Shown in pieces: positions 20,713-23,840 of a DNA stretch of 64,000 nucleotides. The stretch spans positions 806,001 through 870,000 of the forward strand of contig NZ_AJLF01000001.1 in the NCBI RefSeq assembly GCF_000258515.1. The letters are read 5' to 3'. The position numbers were made by a program, and so were the translations under genes. Below the pieces are notes generated by a model, which saw only the letters and a program-made list of their open reading frames with translations, ran no database searches and was not told where the DNA came from. The stretch is from Thermococcus zilligii AN1 (lineage in GTDB: Archaea; Methanobacteriota_B; Thermococci; Thermococcales; Thermococcaceae). Each line of letters begins with the position of its first letter. Position 1 is the first letter of the stretch.

Positions 20713-21093
20713 CTACAGCTCCCTGACGGCGTCCTCTTCGAACTTTTTAACCTCCTCCTGTGTCCCAACCCAGACCACGATAGTTGGCTCAACGGTTATC
20801 ATGCCGTCCTTTATCATGGGCTTTATCTCACCTATAGCCTTCTCAATCATGTGGCCCCGGTCAACGACCTCTATGATGATGGGTAAGTCCGTTGAGAGCC
20901 TTATAACGTCGCTGGAGTGAATTTTATTCCTCTTCCCGAAGCCGTAGATACCCCTGTAGACCGTCGCCCCGGCGATCCCCATCTCGAGGAGCTTCTCAAC
21001 TATGGCCTTGTAGAGGGGCTTTCCATCAAAGCGGTCCTCCTCACAGATGTAGATCCTGAGCCGGAGCGTGTTCCAGTGCTCGACCTCAACCAT
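20713..21093 (-). CDS. DUF190 family protein
   Basis: 126 residues with a PII-like ferredoxin fold: [24 protein letters not shown] and [13 protein letters not shown] (first piece shown as [15 protein letters not shown]). DUF190 genes are commonly next to crcB, as here, and are thought to accompany fluoride export. The ATG at 21093 follows GGAGGTGAAGGT and lies 4 bases after the crcB stop. It is the last gene of the fluoride-riboswitch operon. Confidence 0.88.
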
Positions 21094-21097
21094 ACCT

Positions 21098-21469
21098 TCA
21101 CCTCCGGGCCAGTAAGAAGCCCACAAAGATTAGGGCAACGGTTATTATAACGTTTGCTAACACGTTGAGGGTCGCCATGAAGTATTCCTTTTCCCGGAGG
21201 AGTGAGAACGTCTCGTAGGAGAACGTTGAAAAGGTACTTAACGCACCGCAGAAGCCGATCCCGAGACCGGCCCTCCACTCGGGTGGAACTTCAAAGCCCC
21301 AGAAGACAAGGCCGTAGAGGTAGCCGAGTATCAGGCTCGCTATGCTGTTCACCATAAGCGTCCCAACTGGAAAGTCACGGTAAACGGGCAGGATACCGGT
21401 TATGTAGAACCTCGCAACGGTTCCAAAGACCCCTCCGAAGGTTAGGAACACCAGCAGTCTTGCGTTCAT
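21098..21469 (-). CDS. crcB: Fluoride channel Fluc/CrcB
   Basis: Dual-topology fluoride-specific channel that lets toxic fluoride leave the cell. The 123-residue protein has four membrane helices and the family motifs [25 protein letters not shown] (pore Asn) and [15 protein letters not shown] (Phe-box and central Na-site region). The start overlaps the previous gene by four bases. It is the fifth gene behind the fluoride riboswitch at 23.8 kb, an unusually distal position. Confidence 0.96.
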
Positions 21470-21933
21470 CTCCCATCCTCCCCCCGTTTCCCTCCCGTGC
21501 CGGTTTCCCCTTTAAAGCCTCTGTCCCCGAGGGCCATGTAGTAGTGTATCAGCTCCTCGGCCCTCGAGAAGTCCCTCTCCGGGAGGTTTAACACCCTTCT
21601 GAGTCTTCTGTTCTCCGCCGTGAGTCCGGAGAGCGTTATGGCAAGGTTCTGGTTGTCGAGAGCGGAGTAGTAGCTCCTGAACTTCAGAGGTGACCACTTC
21701 CCCTCAAGCTTGTAGAGCCTCCCCTCAAGCTCCCCGATTTCCCTCCCAAGCCTTTCAATTTCCCTTTCATCGGCCTCTTCATCGAGGTAACCGCCAAGGA
21801 GGATTATCCTCACGGCCTCTTCTGGCTTGAAGCCCCACTTCCTCGAAACCTCCTCTATCCTCTCCCAGAGCTCATCGGATACGCTAAAGGTGACCTTCCG
21901 CCACTTCCCTCTTGCCCAGACGGTTATCTTCAT
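21466..21933 (-). CDS. Hypothetical protein with RHH-like N-terminus and coiled coil
   Basis: Not recognised as a named family. 155 residues. The N-terminus MKITVWARGKWRKVTFSV, then SDELWERIEEVSRKWG and PEEAVRIILLGGYL, resembles a strand plus two helices of ribbon-helix-helix proteins. Residues about 55-75 (EREIERLGREIGELEGRL) form a short coiled coil. The tail is Gly-rich. ATG at 21933 follows GGTGGTGGGG. It could be a DNA-binding regulator or a scaffold of the fluoride operon; either is inference. Confidence 0.65.
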   Translation of the reverse strand: MKITVWARGKWRKVTFSVSDELWERIEEVSRKWGFKPEEAVRIILLGGYLDEEADEREIERLGREIGELEGRLYKLEGKWSPLKFRSYYSALDNQNLAITLSGLTAENRRLRRVLNLPERDFSRAEELIHYYMALGDRGFKGETGTGGKRGEDGR

Positions 21934-22216
21934 CCCCACCACCGAGCCTCTCCCTTAGCTCCCTGTTTTCAAGGCTCAGCTCCCTCCTGAGGTTCAGCAT
22001 GAACTCCCTGTCCTTCCTGGCCCTCTCCTCGAACTCTACCAGTTCCCTGTAGTGCTCTTCCATCTCGTTGAGCTTTTTCTCCAGCCTCTCCTTCTTCTCC
22101 CTGAGGAGCCTCATCCTGAGGGCCTTCAGGGTTCTCTCAAGCCCTTCAATGTCCCTGAAACGGGCCTCTATTGCATTCTTCCGTCTCTTAATCTCATCGA
22201 GCTCCTCCGGGCTCAC
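21884..22216 (-). CDS. Hypothetical coiled-coil protein
   Basis: Not recognised. About 110 residues, almost entirely charged helix with heptad patterns (RTLKALRMRLLREKKERLEKK, split at RMRLL). There is no enzymatic motif. Two starts compete. GTG 22216 overlaps the upstream stop (GTGA). TTG 22234 has a better-spaced GGAGGGG. The 3' end overlaps the next gene by about 50 bases. It is tightly packed within the fluoride operon, so coexpression is likely. Confidence 0.6.
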   Translation of the reverse strand: MSPEELDEIKRRKNAIEARFRDIEGLERTLKALRMRLLREKKERLEKKLNEMEEHYRELVEFEERARKDREFMLNLRRELSLENRELRERLGGGDEDNRLGKREVAEGHL

Positions 22217-22887
22217 TTCAATCCAAAGAGCCAACCTCTACCCCTCCTGTTTTCTCTTCCAGCGCCAATAACGACAGGCCGGCCCTTCAGAAACTCGATG
22301 GTATCTTCAAGCGCCCTCGCCTCTTCCTCCGTCGGCTTTCTGGCTGAGCGGTAATCGTAAGTGTCTATGAAGGCTTTCAAGCGGCTGTCAAGCTCCTCGA
22401 GCTTCTCCATCTGGACTTCTTCCAGTTTCTTGAGGAGTTCGGGCTTATCCTTGATTTTCTCCGCGAGCATTCCGTAGTGTCTCCTGCAAAGTATCGCCTG
22501 CGATGAGCTGTATTCTGGGAGCAGTTCGTCAAGTCTCTCTGCCAGGGCCTCAATGAGGGTTTTCTCCTTCTCTCTCACAAGCCCGCAGAGGAAGCACTCG
22601 CCCTCCTCCCTCTTTCCCCGGAGGTAATCATCCAGGACGTCTTCGTAAATAATTGAAACGCCGAGGGGCCCGAGGAGGGGATTGTTGAGGGCGACCTCAA
22701 GGGTCTTCCAGGCGTGTCTCGTGCAGAGGCCCAGGCTTTCCCTGAACTTCGTCCTGACTCCCGGGTCCGTGACGTGCTCGTAGAGTATCACCTCTATCTC
22801 ATCTTCCTCGAACTTCTCCATCGCCCTGCAGACCGGGCAACCTCTGCCCCCGAGTGCCTCGGAGAGCTTTATCCCAACGATGTCCAT
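22213..22887 (-). CDS. DUF6062-like cysteine-rich protein
   Basis: 224 residues with two similar Cys/His units. Unit one has CPVCRAMEKFEEDE near residue 17 and LGLCTRHAW near 53. Unit two has CFLCGLVREKEK near 98 and ILCRRHYGML near 132. The pattern CxxC...CxxH repeated twice suggests two zinc or iron-sulfur sites on helical hairpins. The DUF6062 label is from memory. It begins three bases after the prenyltransferase-like gene. It has no known link to fluoride. Confidence 0.7.
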   Translation of the reverse strand: MDIVGIKLSEALGGRGCPVCRAMEKFEEDEIEVILYEHVTDPGVRTKFRESLGLCTRHAWKTLEVALNNPLLGPLGVSIIYEDVLDDYLRGKREEGECFLCGLVREKEKTLIEALAERLDELLPEYSSSQAILCRRHYGMLAEKIKDKPELLKKLEEVQMEKLEELDSRLKAFIDTYDYRSARKPTEEEARALEDTIEFLKGRPVVIGAGRENRRGRGWLFGLK

Positions 22888-22890
22888 GGC

Positions 22891-23754
22891 TCACACGAAC
22901 CTGCCCATGGAATCAACGACAGCCAGAGCCCTGTAAGTGTTCTGGAAGTTGGAGATACCGAGCTCCAAAGAACGCCTGAAGCCACCGTTGGGGTTCTGAA
23001 GCTGGCGTACAAACCAGATATGCCTCCCCGGGCAGGCCGGCGTTTCTCCCTGCAGCTCAAGGCCCCGGGTGGCATAGAAGGTCGGCTCAATGTAAGGCGG
23101 CAGGCTGTAGGGAACCTCCGCAAAGCCTCCCATAGGGCAGAGCTCGCAGTTCTTGAAGTGAGGACTTTTAGGCGGTTTATAACCGAGGGCGTAGAGGGTG
23201 TAAAGGGCCTGGTATGTCATCGTTGTCGTTGCCTGCTTTACGCCGTAGCCGTTCCCCTCCCTGAACTTCATGACGAAGGCCCTTATTGCCTCCCTTTCCT
23301 CCTTTGAAAAATCCTGCCCAATAGCTTTGAAGGCTTTGACGACCCAGTAAGTGGCTTCGAGCGGTGTCGCCGTTCCGAACTCCTCGCTCCCGCCAAGGCT
23401 GATGGCGAACTTGCCTTCCGCTGGATTGTACTTGGTGTAAACTATGTCAACGTGCTCTCTGGCGATGTCCTTTGCCCCGAGTATGGAGAGGCCCTCGAGG
23501 GCCATGGCTATCGCAACAACGGCCGTCTGGGGCTGGATTGCCTTCTCAAGGAACTCGATTGTCTTCTCCTTCTCCGGGAACTCCACTCCGAGCAGTTCGT
23601 AGGTCTTGATGGCGTAGTAGGTGTCGTTCACGTTGGTATCTGCGAGGTCGCTTACGAAGCAGTAGCCCCCGTCCTCGTGCCTTCTCTTTTCGATATACTT
23701 AATTGCGGAGTCAACGTCAACGTACTGTCTGAGAAGGTTCAGCTTCGAGCCCAT
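22891..23754 (-). CDS. Prenyltransferase/squalene-cyclase repeat (alpha-alpha toroid) protein
   Basis: 287 residues made of repeats with the GG-x-C/F and Tyr-Tyr-Ala patterns of prenyltransferase beta subunits: EDGGYCFVSDLADTNVNDTYYA near residue 28, PLEATYWVVKAF, NGYGVKQATTTMTYQALYTL and NPNGGFRRSLELG near 265 (each piece a separate repeat). Asp/Cys/His zinc ligands of true farnesyltransferases are not complete, so the function is open. First gene behind the fluoride riboswitch, with AAGGAGGGGGT before its ATG. Confidence 0.75.
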   Translation of the reverse strand: MGSKLNLLRQYVDVDSAIKYIEKRRHEDGGYCFVSDLADTNVNDTYYAIKTYELLGVEFPEKEKTIEFLEKAIQPQTAVVAIAMALEGLSILGAKDIAREHVDIVYTKYNPAEGKFAISLGGSEEFGTATPLEATYWVVKAFKAIGQDFSKEEREAIRAFVMKFREGNGYGVKQATTTMTYQALYTLYALGYKPPKSPHFKNCELCPMGGFAEVPYSLPPYIEPTFYATRGLELQGETPACPGRHIWFVRQLQNPNGGFRRSLELGISNFQNTYRALAVVDSMGRFV

Positions 23755-23777
23755 TCTACCCCCTCCTTTGAAGTAGA

Positions 23778-23840
23778 ACAGGCGTCATCAGCCCTCAACG
23801 GGCGGTTCGGGCTCGAAGCCCGGGCGGACGCCATCGCCCG
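23778..23840 (-). ncRNA. Fluoride (crcB) riboswitch
   Basis: Read on the minus strand, the aptamer has every conserved part of the crcB RNA. These are GGGCGATGGCGTCCGCCC (stem 1 and the GAUGG segment, from 23839), an extra hairpin GGGCTTCGAGCCC, the invariant AACCGCC, and GGCTGATGACGCCT closing at 23780. The first strand GGCGTC pairs with GACGCC. It aligns closely with the structurally solved Thermotoga aptamer as I remember it. The aptamer begins about at the predicted transcription start and ends 24 bases before the first ATG. Control could thus be by early termination or by masking GGAGGGGG. Confidence 0.95.

Follow-up and report, generated by a model that had tools for sequence, protein, structure and literature searches.

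A 64,000-nucleotide window from Thermococcus zilligii AN1 (Thermococcaceae; genome of 1.76 Mb, G000 in our survey) contains a fluoride riboswitch (RF01734) directly ahead of a gene, here designated gene 1, for a predicted toroid protein, behind which lie five further genes including that of the fluoride channel CrcB. In the Thermococcaceae, the constant partner of this riboswitch is gene 1 and not crcB, and the first codons of gene 1 are frozen in a form complementary to the aptamer region. We consider it likely that the RNA is a fluoride-ON, mainly translational riboswitch with gene 1 as its dedicated target in this family. Coordinates are window positions throughout, and features lie on the minus strand unless stated otherwise.

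23863..23876, minus: TATA-like promoter element of the riboswitch transcript, from the sequence; counterpart about 20 nt upstream of most copies
23772..23847, minus: fluoride riboswitch aptamer RF01734 (53.2 bits, gathering score 34)
23827..23832, minus: pseudoknot 5' strand GGCGUC, from the sequence; complement of GACGCC at 23781-23786
23809..23821, minus: side hairpin GGGCUUCGAGCCC, an insertion in the aptamer with complementarity to gene 1 codons 2-5
23781..23786, minus: pseudoknot 3' strand GACGCC, running on into GCCUGUUCU, which complements AGAAUGGGC around the gene 1 start codon
23759..23767, minus: gene 1 ribosome-binding site AGGAGGGGG; most relatives have GGAGGCGGU, which is complementary to aptamer ACCGCC
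23741..23754, minus: start codon and codons 2-5 of gene 1 (ATGGGCTCGAAGCT), a synonymously frozen anti-aptamer strand by the codon tests
22891..23754, minus: gene 1, 287 residues, Prenyltrans PF00432, alpha/alpha-toroid; invariant riboswitch partner

Association of the riboswitch with gene 1

The aptamer matched the RF01734 covariance model over its full length (model positions 1-64 of 64; 23847-23772), with 53.2 bits (E 6e-12) where the gathering score is 34, and the motifs quoted by the original prediction, which had recognized a genuine crcB aptamer here, are present; the locus it delimited at 20713-23840 is the correct one, although the 23840 end cuts off a few 5' bases of the aptamer. The strands GGCGUC (23832-23827) and GACGCC (23786-23781) are complementary as read from the sequence, and their pseudoknot pairing is assigned by homology to the known aptamer fold. 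The TATA-like GATTTTTAAA sits about 20 nt upstream of the window aptamer, and a comparable element stands ahead of 95 of the 106 riboswitch copies, where shuffling would predict 17.

Our survey covered 115 genomes of the phylum. Gene 1 is present in 90 of them, all belonging to one family (Thermococcaceae) and spread over six genera, and in 88 of these carriers the aptamer stands directly ahead of it. In one of the two exceptions (G093; L146, 2030-2090) only the 3' tail of the aptamer remains before an intact gene 1, and that genome gave no crcB match; in the other (G101; L154) gene 1 is broken and no aptamer was found. No relatives of gene 1 outside the family were present in the phylum set, and a pattern-based scan of 84,980 species genomes, of limited reach, found gene 1 only in Thermococcaceae or unplaced Thermococci. 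The genes behind it are less constant. In eight genomes of a putatively Pyrococcus-like genus, the riboswitch heads gene 1 and gene 4, with gene 3 also present in four of the eight; neither these nor four further genomes in which the aptamer precedes gene 1 showed a crcB in the vicinity. L077, presumably the T. kodakarensis locus, and 16 other loci lack genes 2-4, and the search recovered gene 1, crcB and DUF190 alone there. Gene 2 occurs in 56 genomes; its coordinates place it immediately after gene 1 in every case, and it has decayed in G007 and G094.

Because the tie to the riboswitch greatly exceeds what chance would give (88 of 90 genomes, in six genera), gene 1 is very probably a fluoride-response gene other than the exporter. 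The extended fluoride-response module originally predicted thus survives with respect to gene 1, whereas genes 2-4 come and go; likewise, the gene order behind crcB RNAs is conserved where gene 1 is concerned but just in part for genes 2-4, and nothing was found in support of a target enzyme replaced under stress. As the aptamer directly precedes crcB-DUF190 in the outgroup-family genome G077, gene 1 may have been inserted between aptamer and crcB in the ancestor of the Thermococcaceae.

Parts of this picture have precedents. The RF01734 riboswitch is known in Thermococcales and has been detected in T. kodakarensis, where, according to passages of PMC4247193, it lies before TK0513, a placement that the authors found surprising. 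The order of riboswitch, gene 1 and crcB described there is the one seen at L077, and to those passages the present analysis adds the identity of gene 1, the family-wide linkage and the coding-start pairing. Fluoride binding and expression change of the T. kodakarensis riboswitch are credited to Speed et al. 2018 in a passage of PMC8241225, and its expression platform may already have been described in that work.

At the Pyrococcus-like loci (L138-L145), the stretch from promoter to aptamer holds a second conserved hairpin, some 75 nt before the aptamer. It has a stem of approximately 12 base pairs with compensatory changes and an internal loop AUGAGCCGAAACCGGCAACGGGAGUAGG, and it corresponds to no family in Rfam.

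Predicted pairing between the aptamer region and the gene 1 start

From one genome of the family to another, the leader and opening codons of gene 1 hardly differ (GGAGGCGGTAGAATGGGCTCGAAGCT), and they contain three complementary pairs: codons 2-5 with the side-hairpin strand GGCUUCGAGCC, GGCGGU with ACCGCC, and AGAAUGGGC with GCCUGUUCU. In a codon test covering 137 conserved residues of gene 1, codons 2-4 were fixed as GGC, TCG and AAG (top-codon shares of 1.0, 0.95 and 1.0), against shares of 0.31-0.71 for Gly and 0.33-0.57 for Ser at the other conserved positions. Conservation of early codons as a general feature of translation starts was rejected as an explanation, since the other five genes of the cluster have no frozen codon block at their starts. 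The longest helix between codons and leader measured 12 base pairs versus 6.0 after synonymous resampling, with 72 of 88 genomes at or below 0.05.

Codons and hairpin also vary together. None of the 75 leaders whose side hairpin is intact has altered codons, and the seven leaders that do have altered codons are all without the hairpin (Fisher 2.7e-7, a value that overstates the evidence because the tips are related); parsimony on the gene tree places five codon changes, all on hairpin-less tips, alongside eight hairpin changes. RNAfold predicted the codon helix with a probability above 0.5 for 66 of the 74 leaders at 37 C and for all 74 at 85 C. For the helix with the ribosome-binding site, 94% of cells are paired, as compared to 21-68% when the strands are slid by 1-3 nt, and one double change is compensated (L060).

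Second fluoride riboswitches occur at 15 Thermococcus loci (L031, L033, L041, L063, L086, L092-L099, L101 and L102). These copies head a formate-hydrogenlyase-type operon whose first gene, encoding a PF00146-type membrane subunit, was found in 14 genomes and lies behind a riboswitch each time. The association of fluoride riboswitches with formate hydrogenlyase is already known from passages of PMC2864571 and PMC11139923; such riboswitch-headed operons are absent from the window genome, and the pairing of their start region is described in the present analysis. Here the aptamer 5' strand UUCCGGG...GCGUC is the pairing partner of the GUG start and of codons 2-7, and codons 2, 4, 5, 6 and 7 are each represented by a single codon, versus 16% of positions overall. 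At L101 both sides have changed with the pairing kept, and at L095 one pair is broken. Because the hydrogenase start region also pairs with the aptamer, through a different strand, two unrelated genes show the same design.

We propose that, when fluoride is absent, the side-hairpin strand GGCUUCGAGCC would pair with codons 2-5 of gene 1 and aptamer ACCGCC with the ribosome-binding site GGCGGU, while GCCUGUUCU, beside the pseudoknot strand, could pair across the start codon; these helices would form in competition with the aptamer and mask the gene 1 start site. Fluoride and magnesium would lock the pseudoknotted aptamer, letting the side hairpin fold on itself and gene 1 be translated, and genes behind it in the same transcript might follow via translational coupling or archaeal polarity. 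The aptamer sequence and fold are those of the known fluoride (crcB) riboswitch (53 bits); in many bacterial examples, however, terminators overlap the motif, as a passage of PMC2864571 describes, whereas in the window gene 1 would supply the alternative strand, with its ribosome-binding site and first codons. With this proposal, a natural riboswitch from archaea, in which expression platforms are poorly known, receives a specific mechanism of switching that can be tested, and coding sequence would play the part of the regulatory strand in two target genes that are unrelated. Since genetics exist in T. kodakarensis, both this mechanism and the partnership with gene 1 are open to test.

It should be noted that several observations weigh against this mechanism. 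Six genomes without the hairpin still keep the codons, and, with so little variation at most positions of the helices, covariation is sparse. At the window locus, the helix at the ribosome-binding site has one mismatch (GGGGGU), the RNAfold optimum at 37 C is a start-codon hairpin (GUUCUAC/GUAGAA), and the side-hairpin helix has a probability of 0.16 at 37 C and 0.83 at 85 C, the RNAfold energies being extrapolated to growth temperature and computed without pseudoknot or magnesium.

The frozen codons might instead serve a trans-acting leader RNA or a protein-binding site. The codon segment is nearly palindromic and could form a small hairpin of its own, and a passage of PMC4247193 records an 86-nt leader RNA in growing T. 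kodakarensis cells; such a role nevertheless seems improbable, as the codons change only where the aptamer hairpin has been lost, and the hydrogenase copies, unrelated in sequence, follow the same logic and include a compensated change. That the linkage reflects an inherited neighbourhood only, with gene 1 having no part in the fluoride response, would fit with the restriction of all carriers to one family and with the unassigned activity of gene 1, but the linkage persists amid rearranged surroundings, synonymous sites elsewhere in gene 1 vary freely, and gene 1 is broken in G101, where the aptamer is gone. We regard this explanation as highly improbable and favour sequestration in cis at the start of a fluoride-responsive gene.

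Position of crcB and the accessory genes

The remaining genes of the cluster and two promoter-like elements within it are as follows.

22213..22887, minus: gene 2, DUF6062 protein with two CxxC...CxxH sets; accessory
21884..22234, minus: gene 3, coiled-coil protein; accessory
21466..21933, minus: gene 4, ribbon-helix-helix (RHH)-like N-terminus and coiled coil; accessory
21098..21469, minus: gene 5, crcB fluoride channel, PF02537, TIGR00494
20713..21093, minus: gene 6, DUF190 (COG1993), PF02641, weak P-II similarity
21509..21519, minus: TATA-like element GGCTTTAAAGG upstream of crcB, inside gene 4; consensus match only, possible separate crcB promoter
21144..21157, minus: conserved promoter-like GCAAACGTTATAAT in the 3' end of crcB, upstream of DUF190, by codon and nucleotide conservation

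The six minus-strand open reading frames downstream of the aptamer follow one another with overlaps or gaps of a few bases, in the order originally described. Pfam E-values were 7.7e-12 for Prenyltrans PF00432 (45.7 bits), 2e-19 for DUF6062 (70 bits, cut-off 27), 1e-26 for CrcB (PF02537, 93 bits; TIGR00494 exceeded its cut-off) and 2e-35 for DUF190; gene 4 gave no match in the Pfam scan, and its RHH label was judged by eye. The most likely starts of gene 4 and DUF190 are ATG 21933 and ATG 21093, respectively. DUF190 adjoins crcB at every intact locus examined.

According to the original prediction, the riboswitch controls all six genes, and in such a single fluoride operon crcB would be the main target, with genes 1-4 as co-regulated helpers. 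The tight junctions in the window, the position of crcB behind gene 1 at 72 loci, and the standing of crcB as the classic riboswitch partner, which it directly follows in outgroup G077, all speak for this arrangement, yet we find it unlikely across the family, where genes 2-4 are often missing. In the Pyrococcus-like genomes no crcB lies within 6-8 kb of the riboswitch, and intact crcB, where found, is about 57 kb or more away; in G008 the distance is 111 kb. One genome that is 99% complete (G043) has the riboswitch and genes 1-4, yet no crcB match, and the same holds for two less complete genomes (G041 and G053). In eight genomes the riboswitch genes and crcB are kept apart by a gene on the opposite strand, and the complementary strands described above lie at the gene 1 start, not at that of crcB. 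Moreover, six-gene control is doubtful for crcB because T. kodakarensis crcB (TK0514) has its own mapped start site, as stated in a passage of PMC4247193; the separate promoter before crcB that the original prediction had named as evidence against itself is to that extent in place. The intervening opposite-strand gene (L054, L057, L062, L064, L067, L070, L073 and L081) resembles a Na+/H+ antiporter by eye.

TATA-like elements precede crcB at 21 of 74 loci, against 6.5 expected, and GCAAACGTTATAAT inside crcB is conserved at the nucleotide level in most relatives, which makes it a likely internal promoter for DUF190. We believe that crcB-DUF190 is probably also transcribed from its own promoter or promoters. 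The junctions in the window permit co-transcription, and crcB is possibly, but not mainly, under riboswitch control. A second crcB gene of the same organism (G000:C1:287380-287706) has no riboswitch match above the cut-off.

Nature of the gene 1 and gene 2 products

The AlphaFold2 model of gene 1 is confident and helical (predicted local distance difference test, pLDDT, 90), the invariant LGGSEEFGT being its least confident part, and Foldseek matched it to squalene-hopene cyclases, MstE and the RabGGTase beta subunit at approximately 15% identity (query template-modelling scores of about 0.6-0.68, best E 9e-7); a sequence search of the PDB gave weak partial matches only. Gene 1 therefore shares the predicted alpha/alpha-toroid fold and PF00432 repeats with the prenyltransferase and squalene-cyclase toroids. 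Protein prenyltransferase beta subunits are marked by the zinc ligands D-x-C and a distant H, and class II terpene cyclases by DxDD. Unlike these toroids, gene 1 has no conserved D-x-C motif among its invariant alignment columns, and DxDD is absent from both sequence and alignment; with the defining motifs absent, protein prenyltransferase or terpene cyclase activity was rejected. It has conserved loops of its own (LGGSEEFGT, EVPYSLPPYxEPTF and QNPNGGFRRS).

We conclude that gene 1 encodes a toroid protein, which probably has a ligand or substrate; to connect it with isoprenoid lipids would be a guess. Its constancy as the partner of the sensor gives an entry point into a fluoride response based on something other than export. 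More tentatively, and on balance doubtfully, gene 1 could found a class of non-exporter fluoride tolerance, for instance by acting, as a toroid enzyme, on isoprenoid lipids or proteins so that less hydrogen fluoride enters or does damage, and archaea could commonly build expression platforms into the first codons of the target.

The invariant residues of gene 2 (C17, C20, C55, H58, C98, C101, C134 and H137) form two CxxC/CxxH sets, a pattern suggestive of two metal sites. A fold search of gene 2 against the PDB gave no match with E below 1, and a literature search on DUF6062 and TK0513 found nothing beyond PMC4247193.

Upstream of the riboswitch, the divergent neighbours on the plus strand are a C/D box RNA (RF00095, 23992-24047) and a gene for a Cas4-like PD-(D/E)XK protein (24072-24725).

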